This document shows, piece after piece, positions 2,947 through 45,009 of a stretch of 64,000 nt of DNA; the first letter of the stretch is position 1, and each line of letters opens with the position of its first letter. Origin of the DNA: Muscardinus avellanarius (lineage: Eukaryota; Chordata; Mammalia; Rodentia; Gliridae). Both the position numbers and the translations under genes were made by a program. Under the pieces are notes generated by a model. It saw only the letters and a list, made by a program, of their open reading frames with translations. It made no database searches and was not told the origin of the DNA. The DNA is taken from contig OY726571.1 in the NCBI GenBank assembly GCA_963383645.1, positions 25,062,116 to 25,126,115 on the forward strand, read 5' to 3'.

Positions 2947-3325
2947 ACCTTAAAGTCTTTTTACTGGTAGTTGAGGTCATTTATATTCACCATGATTATT
3001 GAGAGATGATTCTTCTTTCCTTAGTTTTTTGTTTGATGAAAATTATTGTTTTCTGGTTCTGGTATTTATTAATTATTTATTATTTGTTATTAAATTTCTG
3101 AGAATTTGCTCTAGTGCTGGTTTGGAATAAATTCTTTCAACTTCTGTTTGTTGTAAAAGATTTTTATTTTCCCATCAAATTTGATAAATAGTTTTTCTGG
3201 GTAAAAAATTTGTAGCTTCAGGTTGTTTTCTTTCAGAGTTTGGAATATTATGCTCCATGCCCTTCTGGCTTTCATGACTTGGTTTGGGAAGTCTGGTCTG
3301 ACTCTAATTGTTTGCTTCTGAATGT

Positions 3326-3694
3326 TGTGTTACTGTGTTCCATTTAACAAAATCTTTTGCCTTTCTGTGTTAAATCTGTATAAGTTCTGAGTCATTCCTT
3401 TGTTCCAAAAGCCCATGAAACCAAAATCTCACAAATCTAAAAAGCCCATGAATCCAGCTGCCCCCCCCACTTCCAAAAATTAAAGCATTCTCTGTGATTG
3501 TTTAGCTTAAAATTACTCTGCAAATTCTTGTTTCTGTACCTGGTGTACTTTCTATAGGGGTCTATGATTTGACATGGGCTTCTGTCGTTTTTTGCCTAGC
3601 TTGAAAGATGGCAGCTGTCATGTAACTAATTAAAGCTTCACACCTTAACCATGTGGCAGTGTCAATTTCTTTGTTCTATGTTTGTGGTATAACA
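3326..3694 (+). mobile_element. solo LTR, probably ERV1-type, inside L1 copy B ORF1
   Basis: A ~369-bp block interrupts the antisense ORF1 text, which resumes in register on both sides. It starts TG and ends CA with imperfectly inverted ends (tgtgttac / gtataaca). It is flanked by atgt (3322-3325) and atgc (3695-3698), a 4-bp duplication with one change, as gammaretrovirus-like LTRs leave. An attaaa signal lies near 3630. The family was not identified and no viral gene is present. Confidence 0.45.
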
Positions 3695-4776
3695 ATGCCA
3701 CTTGCTCTTTGTCTTTTGTCACCTTTAAAATTCTATCCTTGGCCTCTACATTAGTCAGTTTAACTATTATGTAATGTGGTGAATCTTTTCTCTGATCTTG
3801 TCTAAAGGGAGCTCTATATATTTCCTGTACCTATGTATTGACCTCTTTTCCTATGTTTGGAAAGTTTTATGATATTACTTCTTTGAAAATATTGTTGATC
3901 TTTTTGGTTTCAGCTTCTATTCTCTCCTCTATGCCTATCATTTTTAGGTTAGTTCTTTTTAAGTTGGCACATATCTTCTCAATGTTCAATTTAAAGTGTT
4001 GGATTTTTTTCTAAAATTATATACTATACATTCATTTTTTGAATTATATACTATACATTCATTTTTTGAATTCTTCTATGAGTGAAATTCTATTTTCCTG
4101 ATATTTATTCTACAGTTTTTAGTTTGTATTGATGCCTTCATTTCAATACTTACATCCTTCACCGTCTTCAGAGCTTCTTCCTAACTCCAGTTCAGGGTGT
4201 CAAATTCTTTTTATTTGTTCTTTTATTTTTTCAGGCTTTCTCTAAATTATGTTCAGAAATATTATACCATTTTTACTTTTAAAATTCTGACTTGTCCTTC
4301 TGGCAATCTCTGCAATTCTGTGTTGGTGAGTTCTTATTGTGGGGTTTGGGAGCTCATTGCTTCCTTTGCTATTCTTCCTTCTCATGATGTCAGGTTTCTT
4401 AAAATTGTATTTTTGTTGCTTTTGATAGCTTTCTCTCACCCTGTATATGTTAGCTGATATATAAGAGCAAGTTGTATTGTATGCAGTGGTGAAGTTTGAG
4501 TGAGAAAGGAGGTGCTGAAGTAGTAAATACAAGAATAGGGTAAAGTACCAGATAAGATCAAGTAGAATGAGACTTGAAGTGTAGTAAGGTAATAAATAGT
4601 AGAGATTACAGATAGTGAATATATACAATGATTCTAGTAACCAGTGTAGAGTATTTAGGTATAGTGATATGATGTGGATTTAATACAAGACAAAAAATAA
4701 GAATGGAAAGGAGAGAGTAAATATGAAAGAAGAAAGAAGCTTGTAAAAAAGATGGAGAAGAAAGCAAAGAAATAAG

Positions 4777-13380: not shown

Positions 13381-14055
13381 ATCCAGAATGTACAAAGAGC
13401 TCAAAAGACTCTACACTAGCAAAGCAAATAACCCAATTTAGAAATGGGCAACTACATTGAATAGACACTTCAAAAAAGAAGATATATAAATGGCCAATAG
13501 ATATGTAAAAAGATGTTCAACATCATTAGCCATTAGGGAGATGCAAATCAAAACTACGCTGAGATTCCATCTAACCCCAATCAGAGTGGCAAGCATAAAG
13601 AAGTCAAACAAAAACATATGATGGCAAGAATGTGGGGAAAGAGGAACTCTTTTACACTGTTGGAGTGCAAACTAGTTCAGCCACTATGGAGATCAGTGAG
13701 GAGATTCCTTAGAAAACTGGGAATGGATCCACCATATGATCCAGCTCTACCACTCCTGGGTATCTTTCCAAAGGGGTTGAAAACAGAGAACTGCAGTAAT
13801 ATATGCATACCCATGTTCATAGCAGCACAATTCTTAATAGACAAAATATGGAGCCAACCTAGGTCTTCATCAACAGATGAATGTATTGCAAAATTATGGG
13901 AAATACACACAATGGAATTCTATATAGCAATAATGAAAAACAAAATCATGTCATTCGCAAGAAGATGGAAAAACCTAGAAAACATTATGTTGAGTGAGAC
14001 GAGCCAAGCATACAAAGAGAAGGGACATATGTTTTCTCTAATATGTTCAAGCTAG
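13381..14055 (+). pseudogene. L1 ORF2 C-terminal fragment
   Basis: Codes for the end of L1 ORF2 protein, the region after the reverse transcriptase that includes the C-terminal domain. The final 145 codons (13618-14055) are open and keep family landmarks such as PLLGIFPKG, MFIAAQF, ECIAKLWEIHTMEFY and the terminal MFSLICSS. Upstream, at about 13381-13600, the frame has stops. Endonuclease and reverse transcriptase domains are absent because the L1 is 5'-truncated and inverted, so no activity is expected. It is followed by the L1 3' UTR, which is interrupted at 14173. Confidence 0.85.
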
Positions 14056-14173
14056 GGAGTATCCAGAGGGACTCCATATAATGGAGGGGAAACATCAGCA
14101 AAGCCAGAAAAAGGGGGTAGGGAAGAAGAAGGATGAGGTTAATCAATGAAAAAGCTACATTCAAATATGTGTA

Positions 14174-14500
14174 ACGCCAGACCCCTGGAGAAACCGGGCC
14201 TGGTCGTCAGACTCTGGGTCCCAGGCAGGGTCGGGTGGGGCACGCCAGACCCTGGAATAGCCGGGGCCGGGTCGCAGGACTCTGGGCCCCGGGCAGGATC
14301 GTGCGGAGCACGCCAGACCCCAGGAGAAACCAGGGCCCGATCGCAGGACCCTGGACCCTGGGCGGGGGTCAGGCAAGGCAAGCTGGACCCCTGGAAGAGC
14401 CGGGACCCAGGTCGCAGGACTCTGGGCCCCAGGTGGAGTCATTCAGAGCACGCTGGACCCCTGGGAAAGCTGGGCCTGGGTCACAGTTCTACTGAGTGCC
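14174..14500 (+). repeat. GC-rich tandem repeat, ~68-70-bp unit, about 5 copies
   Basis: Units begin (acgccagac or aagctggac) at 14174, 14242, 14310, 14380 and 14450. Each contains cccctgg-type and gcaggactctggg-type blocks. The overlapping open frames on both strands follow from the repeat. Confidence 0.9.
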
Positions 14501-14582
14501 TGATCCCACAACCTCCTCAAACCACACATACTGTCTTCTCTTATTAAAAAAAAAAAAAGGAAAAGAAAAAGAAAAAGAAAAA

Positions 14583-15080
14583 TATCAGAGAGGGGTCAAG
14601 AAGGCCATGGTGGATTCCAGGAGACTGGAGATGCAGACAAAACTTGTCCAAATGAACTGGAACTTTTGGAAAAATTCCCCATGAAGGAGGACTGCTTCTT
14701 CTCTACATTGTTAAGAATCTTGGACATCACCTGTAAGGAGAGAGTTTAGCAGAGACCAAGGAGAAAGGCGGTGTTGAAAGCGGTCTCCGTGATGGTGGTG
14801 GAGACTTGTATTCAGGAGAAGCAGAAATAGGATCCTACCAACCTTATTTTTTTGGAGAAATTACACCAAATGTTGAATGCTACCATCGTGCATGCTTAGG
14901 AACACTGGACAACATTCAGAGTAGAAAAAGAGCTTGATAAAGATTTGAAATGGTGGAGGCAGTGGCAATGGCAGTGGCCAGTACTCAGGGGAGGCAGAGA
15001 TCTGATGCATTATACCTGGGACCTCTGAAGTAATAACCCCAGAGGCTACCACCACACACCATCGAGAACGTGGGACAAAT
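14583..15080 (+). other. unidentified internal segment of the composite
   Basis: About 500 bp with no recognised family, starting after an A-rich tract with tatcagagaggggtcaag. It could be an L1 5' UTR relative or a captured host sequence. Confidence 0.5.
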
Positions 15081-15106
15081 GGTTGGGTGAAGAGGGTGCT
15101 CAGATT

Positions 15107-15905
15107 GGAGCCTGCCAAGGGGTGAGGTTGGCGACGGACACAGCAAAGCTGGGATTGGAGCCTGCCATGAGGCAAGCCGGTGCTGGAGCCTCCGAGGCCG
15201 GAATCGGAGCCTGTTGTGAGGCAAGGCCAGTGCTGGGGACTTTAAGGCTGGAATCGGAGCCTGCCGAGGGGTTAGGCCAGTGCCGGGGCCAGCAAGGCCA
15301 GGATCAGAGCTTACTGTGAGGCAAGGCTACTGCTGAGGCCTCCGAGGCCGGGATTGGAGCCTGCTGAGGGGTTAGGCCGGCGCCAGGGCCAGCAGCCGGC
15401 ATCGGAGCCTTCTGTGAGGCAAGGCCGCTACTGAGGCCTCCAAGGTTGGGATCAGAGCCTGCCGAGGGGTTAGGCTGGTGCTGGGCCCAGAAAGGCTAGG
15501 ATCAGAGCCTGTGATGAGGTAAGGCCAGTGCTGGGGCCTCCAAGGCAGGGATTGGAGCCTGTTGAGGGGTTAGGCTGGTGCCAGGGCCAGCGGCCAGCAT
15601 CGGAGCCTGACATGAGGCAAGGCTGGAAATGGGGCCTCAGGTGCCAGGATCAGAGCCTGCTGAGGGGTTAGGTCGGTGCTGGGGCCAGCGGCCGACATCG
15701 GAGCCCGCCTTTAGGCTAGGCTGGTACTGGGGCCACCGAGGCTGGGATCGGAGCCAGCTGAGGGGTTAGGCCAGTGTCGGGGCCAGTGAGACCAGAATCG
15801 GGGCCTCCCATGAGGCAAGTCCACTGCTTGAGCCAGCAAGGTCTGGATCAATCCACCGGGTAGCCAGGCCACTACCGGGGCGATCAAGATTGGGATCGGT
15901 ACTTG
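15107..15905 (+). repeat. VNTR-like GC-rich array with ~100-bp alternating A/B higher-order unit
   Basis: Units start (gagcct-type core) near 15107, 15157, 15206, 15256, 15306, 15356, 15404, 15454, 15504, 15554, 15602, 15652, 15700, 15750, 15800, 15848 and 15896. From 15206 on, units with tgaggcaaggc alternate with units with gaggggttaggc, giving a dimeric period of 98-100 bp. Confidence 0.9.
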
Positions 15906-16448
15906 CAACGCGGCATGCACAGAGAAATATTGCAGAAAATAAAAACCAGATGCTTCCCCTAATTAACAATAACTAGGAGGAAACGGGCAAGAGGAAGAGG
16001 TCGAGCTATAGAAATGGGCCAATAATGAAGCAATTAAGGTGACCAGTCAGAGGGTATGAAATAGGGTAGGATGGAGCCTCTTTAAAACACAGGAGGTACA
16101 TAAACAAATGTATCAAAGTTAATCACCAAACAAGCAGGGGATTGAGGGAGGGGGAGGGAATGGGATGGGGACTGGATGAGGGCTAATTGGATGATGTGTG
16201 CCTGTATATCCTCTCAAGTCTTGTATTCCAATGTGATATATGATTACAATGCACCAATAAAAATAAATTTAAAAAATATGTGTATACATGTGAATATAAC
16301 ATTGATAGCATTGTTAACCTGGACTCTCAGTATTGGGAGCAAGGGAAAATGGGAAGTGAGGAAGGGGAGGTCACCAAATGCTGTATGACTATATGCCAAT
16401 ATTATGAGGTGAGATTATAGCACACCAATAAAATAAAATTTTAAAAAA

Positions 16449-16551
16449 GGACTTGAAAGCAATAATGAGAGAGAAATAAGGCCATTTCTTATGACCCCAC
16501 CAAGTTCTTACTGATCAGTGAACAGCCTGTGTTGCATCTTCAGCCTCCATT
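16449..16551. other. single-copy spacer between two retroelements
   Basis: About 100 bp of target DNA carrying the L1 target duplication on its left and the ORF1-only element's duplication on its right. Confidence 0.6.
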
Positions 16552-16564
16552 ATAAATTAAAAGG

Positions 16565-17354
16565 CTTCCGGGAAGATGGCGACCGAGAAAAGCGGGGCTT
16601 AAGAGTCCCGCTAACAACCAATCTCCATTACCACAAAAAGAGCGCCTTTCATAGCCAGAAAACACCATCACCAGAAAAACAAAAAAAACACCAGGCTCCA
16701 GAGAGAAAGCGAACTGAGAACAGAGCTCAGGGCCACAGAGGAAACACACGCGCCCGAGGACGCGGCAGCAGCGCCATACTGCCGGCGGCAGCGGCGAACT
16801 CAACGGACGGCTACAGCAAGCCAAGGTGAGCCGATGCGGAACAGCCAGGCGGGATCTTTCGGCGCAGACAGCATTTAAAACTCCCAGTGGCTGAGCTCAG
16901 CACACGCTGCAGGGATTCAGAGTGGAAATCAAAACCAGAGAAGAAAAAATACGCCAGCCTCATGGCCGAGGGCGTGGCAGAGGCGCCATATTGCCACCGG
17001 CGGCGGCAGCAGCAGTGAATTCACCGAGTCCAGTACAGCTACATCTACGTACTCAAGAACAGTGAGTCAAATTGCGGGCCACAGAGGAGAAATCCCAGTA
17101 TTGTGCCTCCTGGGACTTGACCCAGTGAGGGAGTGGTGGTGGCAGAGATATCACACCATAGGAGAGCGTGCAACCTGGCATCCCCCATAGTTTAAAGCAG
17201 CCTCTATCGACTCCCTGGGTCGGAGACTCTGTGATACAACCCAGTAAAGGAGTAGTAGGGTCTGAGATAATACAGACTCGAGATCCAGAGCACCTTAAGT
17301 GAAGCCATAGTGACCCAAGGGAAGAACCCAGAGAAGGCACAAACCTCCGAAATC
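16565..17354 (+). promoter_or_regulatory. 5' UTR/promoter region of the ORF1-only element
   Basis: GC-richer than its surroundings. YY1-type CCAT motifs occur at 16573-16581 (aagatggcg, minus orientation), 16773-16781 (gccatactg) and 16985-16993 (gccatattg). The last two lie in a repeated block of about 212 bp that includes a GGCGGCAGC-rich stretch. L1 transcription start choice is known to depend on a YY1 site at the 5' end. Confidence 0.55.
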
Positions 17355-18272
17355 ATGGGAAAGAGGAATAACACTGAAGTAATGAATGTGCACAACCCCA
17401 CAACATCAGAACCTGATAAAACAGAAAATCAGAGATTTCTAGAAGATCAAATCAGGAAAATAACTGTAGAAATAATAGAGGTGCTTCGAAAAGAACTCAG
17501 AGAGAGCCAAAAAGAGATAAAGGATGCAATTAATGAAGTAAAGGCCTCAATTCAAAGCACAAACAACCGATTAGACCACATGGAGAACAGAATCTCGCTC
17601 TTAGAAGATGAGCAATCCAAAAATGAATGCATAGTTTCTAATCTAGAAAAAGATATCCAACAGCAGGAATCTGACATTGAAGAAATATGGGCCCATCTTA
17701 AGAGAGCTAACCTAAGAATAATTGGAATAGAGGAGGGAAAAGAAAGTGATACCAAAGGGATCAACAATCTCTTCAAGGAAGTAATAGCAGAAAATTTTCC
17801 AAATATAGAGCAAGAGGTTGATACACAGATCCAGGAAACTTATAGAACTCCCTTTAGACAGGATCCGAGAAGAGGATCCCCACGCCATATAATTGTCAAA
17901 ATGACCAATGTGGAAGCCAAGCAGAGAATCTTAAAGGCAACAAAAACAAAGGGCCAAGTGACATTCAGAGGCAAACCAATTAGAATCACTCCAGACTTCC
18001 CAAACCAAGTCATGAGAGCCAGAAGGGCTTGGAGTAACATATTCCAAACTCTGAAAGAAAACAACTTCCAGCCAAAAATTTCCTATCCAGCAAAACTTTC
18101 TATCAAATTAGATGGAGAAATAAGAAGCTTCCATGACAAACAGAAAGTGAAGGAATTTATGTCTTCAAAACCAGCGCTAGAGAAAATACTCAAAGAGATT
18201 AACTACAAAGAAGAAATAGGTAACACTCACCAGAACCAGAGAAACAAGAGTTTCCATCCAACAGACAACTAA
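17355..18272 (+). CDS. L1-type ORF1 protein (RNA-binding retrotransposon chaperone), intact
   Basis: Trimeric RNA-binding protein that coats element RNA in cytoplasmic RNPs and acts as a nucleic-acid chaperone. The start is taken at 17355 (MGKRNN, matching the family's usual MGK start), giving 305 residues. An upstream in-frame ATG at 17310 would give 320. Numbered from 17310: a polar N-terminus to about 40; a heptad-rich coiled coil at about 41-130; an RRM-like domain from NLRIIGIEEG (134) to about 210, including PRHIIVKMTN; and a C-terminal domain at about 215-300 with RARRAW and SYPAKLS, conserved in L1 ORF1p and implicated in RNA binding. Mammalian ORF1p is usually about 340-370 residues, so this one is slightly short. 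No stop or frameshift is seen, and copy 2 has three lesions. No ORF2 follows. Expression is unknown. Confidence 0.9.
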   Translation: MGKRNNTEVMNVHNPTTSEPDKTENQRFLEDQIRKITVEIIEVLRKELRESQKEIKDAINEVKASIQSTNNRLDHMENRISLLEDEQSKNECIVSNLEKDIQQQESDIEEIWAHLKRANLRIIGIEEGKESDTKGINNLFKEVIAENFPNIEQEVDTQIQETYRTPFRQDPRRGSPRHIIVKMTNVEAKQRILKATKTKGQVTFRGKPIRITPDFPNQVMRARRAWSNIFQTLKENNFQPKISYPAKLSIKLDGEIRSFHDKQKVKEFMSSKPALEKILKEINYKEEIGNTHQNQRNKSFHPTDN

Positions 18273-18394
18273 GATTGGTTATCTGTGGAGATTCATTATT
18301 TATGTTAGTCTTTTACCTATCTCTAAATTGTATTGTTTGCCTTTATTGTTGTTAATTTTTAGGATTTCTAGTTGGAATATTAATATACCTTCAG

Positions 18395-18992
18395 ATATAG
18401 CATTTGGAAATATTTTATCCAATTCTATTAGTAACTTTTAACTCTGTTTACATTGTCTTTGGATATACAATATTTTCTTTTATTTTTTAGGGAGTTTGTA
18501 TATTCTTCTGTTGCCTGTGCCATTGAAATCATATCCAAGAAATCACTGCCAATTTCAATGTTGTGAGGTTTTATGACCCAGATTTTCTCCTAAAAGTTTA
18601 TAGTCTTAAGATTTATATTTAGGTCTTTTATCTAGTTTGAGTTAATACTTGTATGTGGGATTAGGTAAGGGTCCAATTTTATTCTTTTCCATGTAATTAT
18701 TATTTTTCAACAATATTTAGTTAAAAGATTATTATTTCCACCACCAAATCTTCGTGGAAACCTTGTCAAAAATAACTTGACAATATAGGGAAGAAGTTAG
18801 CTCTAGGCTTGTATTTAACTCCAATGGTCTATATATCTGCCTTTAGAACAATACTACACTGTTTCAATTATTGTAGCTTTATATGGTTTGAAATCAGAAA
18901 ATATACAGCTTCTAGCTTTGTTTTTGCTTCGAGATTGTTTTGGGTATCTAGAGTCCATATTCCATATCAGGATAGATTTTTTTTCTGAAAAA
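18395..18992 (-). mobile_element. inverted L1 ORF2 3' segment inside the ORF1-only element
   Basis: On the plus strand it reads as antisense L1 ORF2: ttgcctgtgccattgaaatc, atatccaagaaatcactgcc, gagttaatacttgtatgtggg, attgtagctttatatggtttg. These phrases occur in the same order in antisense L1 consensus. Many stops are present on its coding strand. The same block is in copy 2 at about 44072-44672. Confidence 0.8.
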
Positions 18993-19187
18993 TAAATATA
19001 TGATAGTTTCACCTAAAAAAAAGGAAAAAATATTCTCTGGTAAGAAAGAAAGCAAAAAGAAATATTGAAATGTTATCTTTAAGTCATCAAAAGCTTGGTA
19101 TCAGACAAATGAAACTTTTATGTGAGATTATCATTTTTAATTTTGGATAAATTGCTGTAATACTAGATGTCAACCACTAAGCCAAGC
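18993..19187 (+). other. unidentified segment shared by both ORF1-only elements
   Basis: About 195 bp between the inverted ORF2 block and the G-rich 3' UTR, nearly identical to 44673-44865. No repeat family recognised; possibly captured host DNA. Confidence 0.6.
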
Positions 19188-19348
19188 ATGGGAGGGAGGG
19201 ATGGGGAGAGAATGGGGTGGGGATCGGGTGGGGGCTGACTGGGCGATGTGTGCATGTATGTCTACAAAAGTTTGTATCCCACTATGATGTATGAATACAG
19301 TGCACCAATAAAATAAAATTTAAAAAAAATAAATAAATTAAAAGGCTT

Positions 19349-29474: not shown

Positions 29475-29523
<49 letters not shown>

Positions 29524-29546
29524 CCTTTCTTATTCCTCTTAAGAGG

Positions 29547-29592
<46 letters not shown>

Positions 29593-29613
29593 CCTTTCTT
29601 ATTCCTCTTAAGA
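29475..29613. repeat. duplicated (AT)n array with palindromic spacer
   Basis: Two (AT)n runs of about 40-45 bp, each followed by the same 23-bp segment ttccctttcttattcctctt-aag. The first copy continues into the 12-bp perfect palindrome cctcttaagagg. Confidence 0.9.
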
Positions 29614-42176: not shown

Positions 42177-45009
42177 CTTCCGGGAAGATGGCGACCGAGA
42201 AAAGCGGGGCTTAAAAGCCCCGCTAACAACCAAACTATTACCACAAAATCAGCACCTTTCATAGCCAGAAAACACCATTACCAGAGAAACAAAAATATCA
42301 CCAGCCCCAGAGAGGAGGGGGTCTCAGAATGGAGCTCAGAGCCACAGAGAAGATAGGCCAGCCTCACGGCCGAGGATGCAGCAGCAGCACCTTACTGCCA
42401 GCGGCAGCAGCGAGTTCACCGGACAGCTACAGCTACAGACCAGTGCACTCAACAGCCCACCAGGCTCCAGAGAGGAGCGGTGGGCAGCGAGCCGAGGTGA
42501 GCCGCTGGGGATCAGCCCAGCGGGATTCGGCAGATTTTTCAGCACAGAGAGCATCTAAAGCTCCCAGTGGCTGGGCTCAGCACAAGCTGCAGGGACTCAG
42601 AGTGGAGATCAAAACCAGAGAAGAAATACACCAGCCTCACAGGCTGAGGGCGTGCTGCAGCGCCATATTGCCAACGGCAGCAGCAGCAGCAGCGAATTCA
42701 CCGAGTCCACTACAGCTCCATCTGCATACTCAACAACTGTGAGTCAAATTGCGGGCCCCAGAGGAGAAATCCCAGTACTGACTCCCAGGGACCTGACCCA
42801 GTAGGGGAGGGGCGGTGGCAGAGATACCACACCATAGGAGAATGCGCAACCTGGCACCCGCCATGGTCTAAAGCAGCCTCTATTGACTCCCTGGGTCTGA
42901 GACTCTGCGATACAACCCAGTACAGGAGTAGTGGGGTCTGAGATACCACAGACTCGAGATCCAGAGCACCTTAAGTGAAGTCATAGTGACCCAAGGGAAG
43001 AACTCAGAGAAGGCACAAACTTCCGAAATCATGGGAAAGAGGAATAACAATGGAGCAATGAATGCCCACAACCCCACAACATTAGAACCCGATAAAACAG
43101 AAATTCAGAGATTTCTAGAAGATCAAATGAGGGAAATAACTGTAGAAATAATAGAGCTGTTTCGAAAAGAATTCAGAGAGAGCCAAAAAGAGATAAAGGA
43201 TGCAATTAATTAAGTAAAGGCCTCAATTCAAAGTACAAACAACCGATTAGACCACATTGAGAATAGCATCTCGCTCTTAGAAGATGAGCAATCCAAAAAT
43301 GAACGCATAGTTTCTAATCTAGAAAAAAATATCTGACAGCAGGAATCTGACATTGAAGAAATATGGGCCCATTTTAAGAGAGCTAACCTAAGAATAATTG
43401 GAATAGAGGAGGTAAAAGAAGGTGAAACCAAAGGGATTAACAATCTCTTCAAGGAAGTAATAGCAGAAAATTTTCCAGACATAGAGCAAGAGGTCGATAC
43501 ACAGGTCCAGGAAACTTATAGAACTCCCTTTAGACAGGATCGGAGAAGAGGATCCCCACGCCACATAATTGTCAAAATGACAAATGTGGAAGCCAAGCAG
43601 AGAATCTTAAAGGCAACAAAAACAAAGAGCCAAGTGACATTCAGAGGCAAACCAATTAGAATCACTCCAGACTTCCCAAACCAAGTCATGAGAGCCAGAA
43701 GGGCTTGGAGTAACATATATCTAAACTCTGAAAGAAAACAACTTCCAGCCAAAAATTTTCTACCCAGCAAAACTTTCTATCAAATTAGATGGAGAAATAA
43801 GAAGCTTCCATGACAAACAGAAACTGAAGGAATTTATGTCTTCAAAACCAGCGCTAGAGAAAATACTCAAAGAGATTAACTACAAAGAAGAAATAGGTAA
43901 CACACACCAGAAACAGAGAAACAAGATTTTCCATCCAACAGACAACTAAGATTGGTTATCTGTGGAGATTCATTATTTATGTTAGTCTTATACCTATCTC
44001 TAAATTGTATTGTTTGCTTTTATTGTTGTTAATTTTTAGGATTTCTAGTTGGAATATTAATATACCTTCAGATATAGCATTTGGAAATATTTTATCCCAT
44101 TCTATCAGTAACTTTTAACTCTGTTTACATTGTCTTTGGATATACAATATTTTATTTTTTAGGGAGTTTGTATACCCTTCTGTTGCCTGTGCCATTGAAA
44201 TCATATCCAAGAAATCACTGCCAATTTCAATTTATGAGGTTTTATGACCCAGATTTTCTTCTAAAAGTTTATAGTCTTAAGATTTATATTTAGGACTTTT
44301 ATCTATTTTGAGTTAATATTTATATATGGGATTAGGTAAGGGTCCAAAAGAATTTTATTCTTTTTTATGTAATTATTATTTTTCAATAATATTTAGTTAA
44401 AAGATTATTATTTCCTCCACCAAACGTTCGTGGAAACCTTGTCAAAAATAACTTGACAATATATGGAAGAATGTATTTCTAGGCTTTTACTTAACTCCAA
44501 TGGTTTATATATCTGCCTTTATAACAGTACTACACTCTTTCAATTATTGTAGCTTTATATGGTTTGAAATCAGAAAATATATATCTTCTAGCTTTGTTCT
44601 TTTTCAAGATCGTTTTGGGTATCTAGAGTCCATATTCCATATTAGGATAGATTTTTTCTGAAAAATAAATATATAAATATATGATAGTTTCACCTAAAAA
44701 AAAGAAAAAAATATTCTCTGGTAAGAAAGAAAGCAAAAAGAAATATTGAACTGTTATCTTTAAGTTATCAAAAGCTTGGTATCAGACAAATGAAACTTTT
44801 ATGTGAGATTATCATTTTTAATTTTGGATAAATTGCTATAATACTAGATGTCAACCACTAAGCCAAGCATGGGAAGGAGGGATGGGGAGGGAATGGGGTG
44901 GGGATCGGGTGGGGGCTGACTGGGCGATGTGTGCATGTATGTCTACAAAAGTTTTTTGTATCCCACTATGATGTATGAATACAGTGCACCAATAAAAAAT
45001 TTTTTAAAA
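42177..45009 (+). mobile_element. full-length ORF1-only L1-derived (HAL1-like) element, copy 2
   Basis: Begins cttccgggaagatggcgacc, as copy 1 does, and ends in the same G-rich 3' UTR and A-tail. The perfect 16-bp duplication aagataaggacgaaga flanks it at 42161-42176 and 45010-45025. Map: 5' UTR 42177-43030, broken ORF1 43031-43949, inverted ORF2-derived block about 44072-44672, unidentified shared segment to about 44865, 3' UTR to 44990, then A-tail. The 5' UTR carries about 65 bp more than copy 1 near 42420-42490. Confidence 0.9.
43031..43949 (+). pseudogene. broken L1-type ORF1 of copy 2
   Basis: Closely matches the intact ORF1 of copy 1 and starts at the equivalent MGKRNN ATG. It has in-frame stops TAA at 43211-43213 (a GAA codon in copy 1) and TGA at 43334-43336 (CAA in copy 1), and a one-base insertion near 43717, at the start of the C-terminal domain. 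The encoded coiled coil, RRM-like and C-terminal domains are still recognisable piecewise, ending at the same stop position as copy 1. No functional full-length protein is expected. The lesions look like neutral decay after insertion. Confidence 0.9.

Follow-up and report, generated by a model that had tools for sequence, protein, structure and literature searches.

The interval at 14174-16273 of the window (the whole stretch of DNA that was analysed, 64,000 nucleotides) holds two tandem arrays and an L1-type 3' end between two copies of one 11-bp sequence. It raises the question of whether these parts moved together as one composite retroposon or came together by separate insertions. The original prediction was of a single 2.1-kb unit of SVA-like make-up, mobilised by L1. 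We favor two nested L1-mediated insertions, in which a first element with a 68-70-bp array (E1) received a second, ORF-less and L1-dependent element with a 48-50-bp VNTR (E2), and we give this explanation, as worded, a probability of roughly 0.6. The confidences expressed below for the other explanations overlap with each other and with this one, and their sum is not one.

The interval is an insertion within the 3'UTR of an older L1, the end of which restarts at 16285. Residues 43-169 of the 172-aa frame on the upstream side correspond to human L1 ORF2p 1146-1272 (E 2.1e-35). On the downstream side an L1-tail profile, itself built with that segment included, matches 16333-16443 (E 4.6e-21), and alignment of this host 3'UTR with the tail of E2 gives a z of 6.0 (40 shuffles). 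The duplication that encloses the interval is perfect, as had been predicted. The 11-mer AAATATGTGTA occurs twice in the window, at the two places given in Table 1, with 0 occurrences of its reverse complement, and when 200,000 intervals of 400-2300 bp were placed at random, 1 had a flank match of at least 11 bp. Between the two copies the parts follow in the order 68-70-bp array, short stretch, A-rich tract, some 510 bp, VNTR, some 210 bp and L1-type 3' end. The proposed L1-type mobilisation is supported by the combination of target-site duplication (TSD), L1 3' end and interrupted host L1.

Table 1. Features of the interval and its flanks (window coordinates)
Feature	Position	Strand	Description
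Host L1 ORF2 C-terminus	13537-14055	+	older, interrupted L1; 172-aa frame
TSD1, left copy	14163-14173	+	AAATATGTGTA; same as 16274-16284
E1	14174-14579	+	array 14174 to about 14480, unique region of about 65 bp, A-rich tail 14546-14579; 3' boundary putative
Possible TSD2, left copy	14578-14585	+	AAAAATAT; last A's of the E1 tail plus start of the E1 right TSD copy
E2	14586-16271	+	ORF-less retroposon; probable boundaries, drawn from the 8-bp repeat and the 5' motif
E2 5' domain	14586-15102	+	start like an L1 5' end; about 510 bp beyond it without recognised match
VNTR	15103-15905	+	48-50-bp units of two types in alternation, 15 of them complete; one or two decayed units after these
Post-VNTR segment	15906-16116	+	about 210 bp; not significantly similar to L1 parts of the window
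E2 L1-type 3' end	16117-16271	+	with AATAAA; nhmmer matches to two window elements
Possible TSD2, right copy	16272-16279	+	AAAAATAT; overlaps the TSD1 right copy
TSD1, right copy	16274-16284	+	AAATATGTGTA; same as 14163-14173
Host L1 3' end, remaining part	16285-16449	+	L1-tail profile match and shuffle test

Both arrays of the prediction, the GC-rich one of 68-70 bp and the VNTR of 48-50 bp, are recovered by TRF. The first is reported over 14174-14433 with a period of 68 (3.8 copies), the second with a period of 98 over 15203-15823 (6.3 copies) and with a period of 50 over 15176-15806 (12.7 copies). Laid out by hand over 15103-15845, with unit starts from 15103 to 15796, the VNTR comprises eleven units of 50 bp, one of 49 bp and three of 48 bp. 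The segment from 15851, which gives a z of 4.8 against the VNTR, is its decayed end, reaching to about 15905. The core of about 50 bp recurs at 13 places with three or fewer mismatches (mean of 0.00 in 100 shuffles), and the GC content over 15096-15850 is 65%. Units two apart are more alike than neighbours (mean identity of 0.727 vs 0.648), and the difference between same- and opposite-parity units was equalled in 20 of 2000 random orders. This greater likeness of units two apart argues that the VNTR grew partly by dimers of about 98 bp, in agreement with TRF. The array of E1 starts immediately next to the TSD, and position 14174 may not mark its full extent on the 5' side. The two arrays are unrelated by alignment (z of 0.0 and 0.5). 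No Pfam family was found in the E1 frames tested, and a protein search with one frame over the E1 array (4 candidates) gave no homologous protein at E 0.1. Elsewhere in the window, a 69-bp tandem duplication (29480-29613; 1.9 copies, 100% match) lies inside an AT-rich microsatellite region.

A check set in advance asked for signs of a TSD at the internal A-tract. Such signs are present, though short: AAAAATAT, 8 bp in length, is the same there as at the 3' junction. Among 2000 internal positions this match to the 3' junction is the joint-longest, and the other match of 8 bp, at 14552, is due to the A-run at that place. The A's themselves are uninformative. TAT follows 172 of 3189 runs of three or more A's (5.4%) and 27 of 441 runs of five or more (6.1%), and AAATAT ends 4 of 34 A-rich tracts, the unit's own perhaps included. 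By a looser test, 60 of 429 runs of five or more A's outside the unit (14%) have a match of at least 8 bp. A chance match like AAAAATAT is thus seen at about 5-14% of A-runs. Being both short and A-rich, the repeat is weak evidence for nesting when taken by itself. It is the repeat together with an L1-like start 4 bp beyond it that favors two nested insertions.

This start is a stretch at 14590-14606, where 14 of 17 bases match a human L1 5'-end motif that we picked after the sequence was seen. The window has one further equal match (40498), and shuffles give a mean of 0.16 matches per window. In human L1 the motif presumably sits about as far from the 5' end as it does in E2. Two considerations count on the other side. 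A match of 14 of 17 bases is short of homology over a domain, and an L1 5' motif also fits a composite whose master formed by nesting elsewhere. We put the nesting of two elements at about four in five.

The single 2.1-kb unit, as first proposed, is not supported by the repeat at the internal A-tract and the motif beyond it. One SVA- or LAVA-like composite, copied from a single RNA with both arrays and the L1 3' end, would explain why one perfect TSD surrounds the whole interval. It would also suit the ordered unit types of a GC-rich VNTR and the L1 fragment at the 3' end, as in LAVA, and the internal repeat may be one of the chance matches just counted. Against these points stand the identity of that repeat with the 3' junction, the L1-like start that follows it directly and the failure to find a second copy in the window, and we consider this composite quite unlikely. 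For two events, we infer that E1 came first. The reverse order, with E2 first and E1 inserted into its left TSD, was rejected: the A-tract is followed by the start of the TSD (AAATAT) and not by its end, and five chance bases would be needed.

Our preferred reading of E2 is a retroposon that is ORF-less and depends on L1, with an L1-like start, a VNTR and an L1 3' end. Its 3' end matches 19167-19323 (E 1.7e-21) and 44848-45005 (E 1.2e-21) by nhmmer, and 16131-16279 shares 78-80% identity with the termini of two further elements of L1 type in the window. AATAAA occurs at 16256 and at 16262. The similarity bears out the L1-type tail that had been proposed, whereas the poly(A) ascribed to it is short: the terminus reads ATTTAAA before the TSD, with a short A-run that overlaps the TSD.

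All six frames of the E2 5' domain were without a Pfam family above the cut-off, as were the three forward frames of the post-VNTR segment. The 5' domain resembles neither the 5'UTRs of the window's HAL1-like elements nor ORF1, the ORF2 end or the L1 3'UTR, and a protein search with one frame over it (18 candidates) gave nothing at E 0.1. Derivation of the mid or the post-VNTR segment from the window's L1 parts was rejected, as no significant similarity was seen and the largest z in a second test was 1.7. Reversed alignments of the mid segment with two L1-related stretches (z of 2.5 and 2.6; 40 shuffles per pair, many pairs) and of the E2 tail with the 5'UTR of one HAL1-like element (z of 3.2; same shuffle set) were not taken as real. 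No ORF1 remnant was found in the unit at E of 1 or less against the best 120 of 2395 ORF1 proteins, and no ORF1 Pfam domain in the E2 frames tested. These 2395 proteins are the matches of an ORF1 protein search. Among the best 120, identity exceeds 70% for the two top-scoring entries, both contig proteins (76% and 72%), and a bat protein with 40% comes third. Of those that bear an organism name, squirrel proteins (Sciurus, Marmota and Spermophilus) show the highest identity, at 50-54%; a record labelled Chlamydia (50%) is surely contamination. Indirectly, these squirrel matches support the rodent lineage of the original prediction. With two of the best 120 above 70%, near relatives are sparse in the protein collection, and the protein negatives for the 5' domain and for the first array are therefore weak.

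These searches bear on a different nested arrangement, in which E2 is not a deleted L1. It would be a VNTR composite of non-L1 sequence with an L1 tail, convergent with LAVA. The absence of both an ORF1 remnant and a Pfam domain fits this arrangement, as does the lack of any relation between the L1 parts at hand and either the 5' domain or the 210 bp that follow the VNTR. The L1-like start at the putative 5' end and the single copy speak against it, and we hold it to be possible, though rather doubtful. As the source of an L1-dependent E2, we regard an L1 that had gained the array in its 5'UTR and lost its ORFs as the most likely, though with odds that are only about even.

Searches of the window (blastn to E 1e-3; nhmmer to E 10) showed no further copy of either array or of the mid segment. 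A one-off processed pseudogene, made when a cellular transcript ran through a minisatellite to an L1 polyadenylation site and was copied once by L1, would be in keeping with this and with the lack of a Pfam family above the cut-off. It leaves the L1-like 5' start to chance, and we judge it improbable. Gene capture, as in PVA, was rejected as well; the sole Pfam row was MTBP_mid (E 0.069), whose 12.6 bits fall below the cut-off of 25.

Other sequence collections were searched with the same parts. The VNTR pattern gave 0 matches in viral_contigs, where the control patterns for the L1 tail and the mid segment also gave 0, so that the negatives from this collection say nothing on squirrel-type repeats. 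In genome_contigs it gave three single bacterial matches, which we take as chance. The unit had no blastn match to phages and one of 38 bp to a Paraburkholderia plasmid (E 4e-3); the L1 tail alone had three weak matches to phages (E 0.04 to 0.1).

For the two nested insertions that we prefer, the following course is proposed. An E1 RNA, with the 68-bp GC-rich array, a little unique sequence and the A-tail at its 3' end, would have been inserted into the host L1 3'UTR by L1 target-primed reverse transcription, with an 11-bp TSD. Later, E2 would have entered the junction of the E1 A-tail and the right TSD copy, also via L1, with a duplication of 8 bp; L1 insertion often targets A-tails. The 5' region of E2, perhaps of L1 descent, would drive transcription, and L1 ORF2p, acting in trans, would reverse-transcribe and insert the RNA with its L1 3' end and A-tail. 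The L1-like 5' end of E2 and its L1 3' end would let L1 ORF2p handle its RNA.

The window also holds two HAL1-like elements, at about 16565-19332 and at 42177-45009, with 89.7% identity over 2861 aligned bases and with TSDs of at least 13 bp and of 16 bp, respectively. The former consists of an L1-type 5'UTR, ORF1 (PF02994 and PF17490), a decayed ORF2 fragment in antisense and an L1 3' end. The fragment corresponds to human ORF2p 825-1006 (E 5.1e-23); a shorter 52-aa frame alone gave no match. The latter element is collinear with the former by DNA, the ORF2 fragment being read in frames. It seems that a mobile ORF1-only family carries an inverted ORF2 piece, and such a fragment as part of a mobile unit may be less usual. 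An older L1 ORF1 lies on the minus strand at 3020-4042, in two pieces (3020-3325 and 3694-4042) with 368 bp between them and with 77-80% identity to the HAL1-like elements. The presence of the HAL1-like elements shows that ORF2-less L1 derivatives were mobile in the host lineage.

How far does the unit resemble known composites? The SVA-like make-up of the original prediction is supported for the GC-rich VNTR of about 50-bp units, with a 5' domain on one side and a 3' end derived from L1 on the other. The CT hexamer and the Alu-like domain of SVA and LAVA were not found. With three or fewer mismatches, (CCCTCT)3 has 60 matches in the window and 0 in 14174-16273. A profile built from seven SINEs found in the window, which we take to be in part 7SL-derived (B1/ID type), has 29 matches in the window and 0 in 14100-16330, and blastn of the unit to the window gave no SINE match at E 1e-3. 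Rfam, which is insensitive here and also missed the window's SINEs, showed no SRP/7SL in 14100-16330 to E 5. Its six weak matches in that range (E 0.061 to 4.5) are all under the gathering score, and at gathering the whole window has 0 matches.

Some L1 5'UTRs are tandem repeats (mouse-type monomers). Like these, E2 has its tandem array towards the 5' side of an element of L1 type; it differs in its unit of about 50 bp, in the position of the array after some 510 bp and in the absence of ORFs downstream. HAL1 elements are described, in the sections of PMC5753468 at hand, as ORF1-only L1 derivatives with several origins in mammals. Like HAL1, E2 is without ORF2, has an L1 3' end and would presumably be mobilised in trans; unlike HAL1, it is also without ORF1 and has a VNTR. 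The L1 chimeras and 5'UTR swaps in the available sections of Law and Burns (PMC13174262) offer another likeness, as there too other RNA sequence is joined 5' to L1. Those sections use "VNTR" at least three times, about SVA, and do not mention "squirrel", "sciurid" or "marmot". Full-text searches gave no squirrel VNTR composite among the matches listed. LINE and SINE activity in ground squirrels has gone quiet, according to an excerpt of PMC5857283 (citing Platt and Ray 2012).

The closest comparison by layout is with SVA, LAVA, PVA and FVA. In the sections of PMC4432496 at hand these are described as hominoid-specific and alike in plan: a CT hexamer and Alu-like sequence form the 5' region, and the central VNTR has GC-rich units of 30-50 bp and ordered unit types. 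The VNTR of LAVA is reported there as helping mobilisation. Compared by layout alone, our unit is like all four in its L1-type insertion hallmarks and its GC-rich VNTR of 48-50-bp units, and like LAVA in the L1 fragment of its 3' part. Unlike the four, it is without the CT-hexamer repeat, and no Alu-like domain was found. Its L1 part lies at the terminus, as an L1 3' end that brings an AATAAA of its own. It also has a further array, of 68-bp units, set apart by an A-tract, and one copy is known. Judged from sequence, the unit is not a member of the hominoid SVA/LAVA group. Tentatively, and with a good deal of doubt, E2, with or without E1, may stand for an unnamed family of ORF-less retroposons of the host lineage, in which an L1-like 5' end precedes a VNTR of about 50-bp units and an L1 3' end follows it, and which would have an origin independent of hominoid SVA and LAVA. 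A single copy that is probably nested is not enough to demonstrate a second origin of VNTR composites. If true, such an origin in rodents would help to show which parts (a GC-rich array of about 50-bp units and an L1 3' end) suffice for the mobilisation of an RNA by L1, and by analogy the unit might work as SVA and LAVA do.
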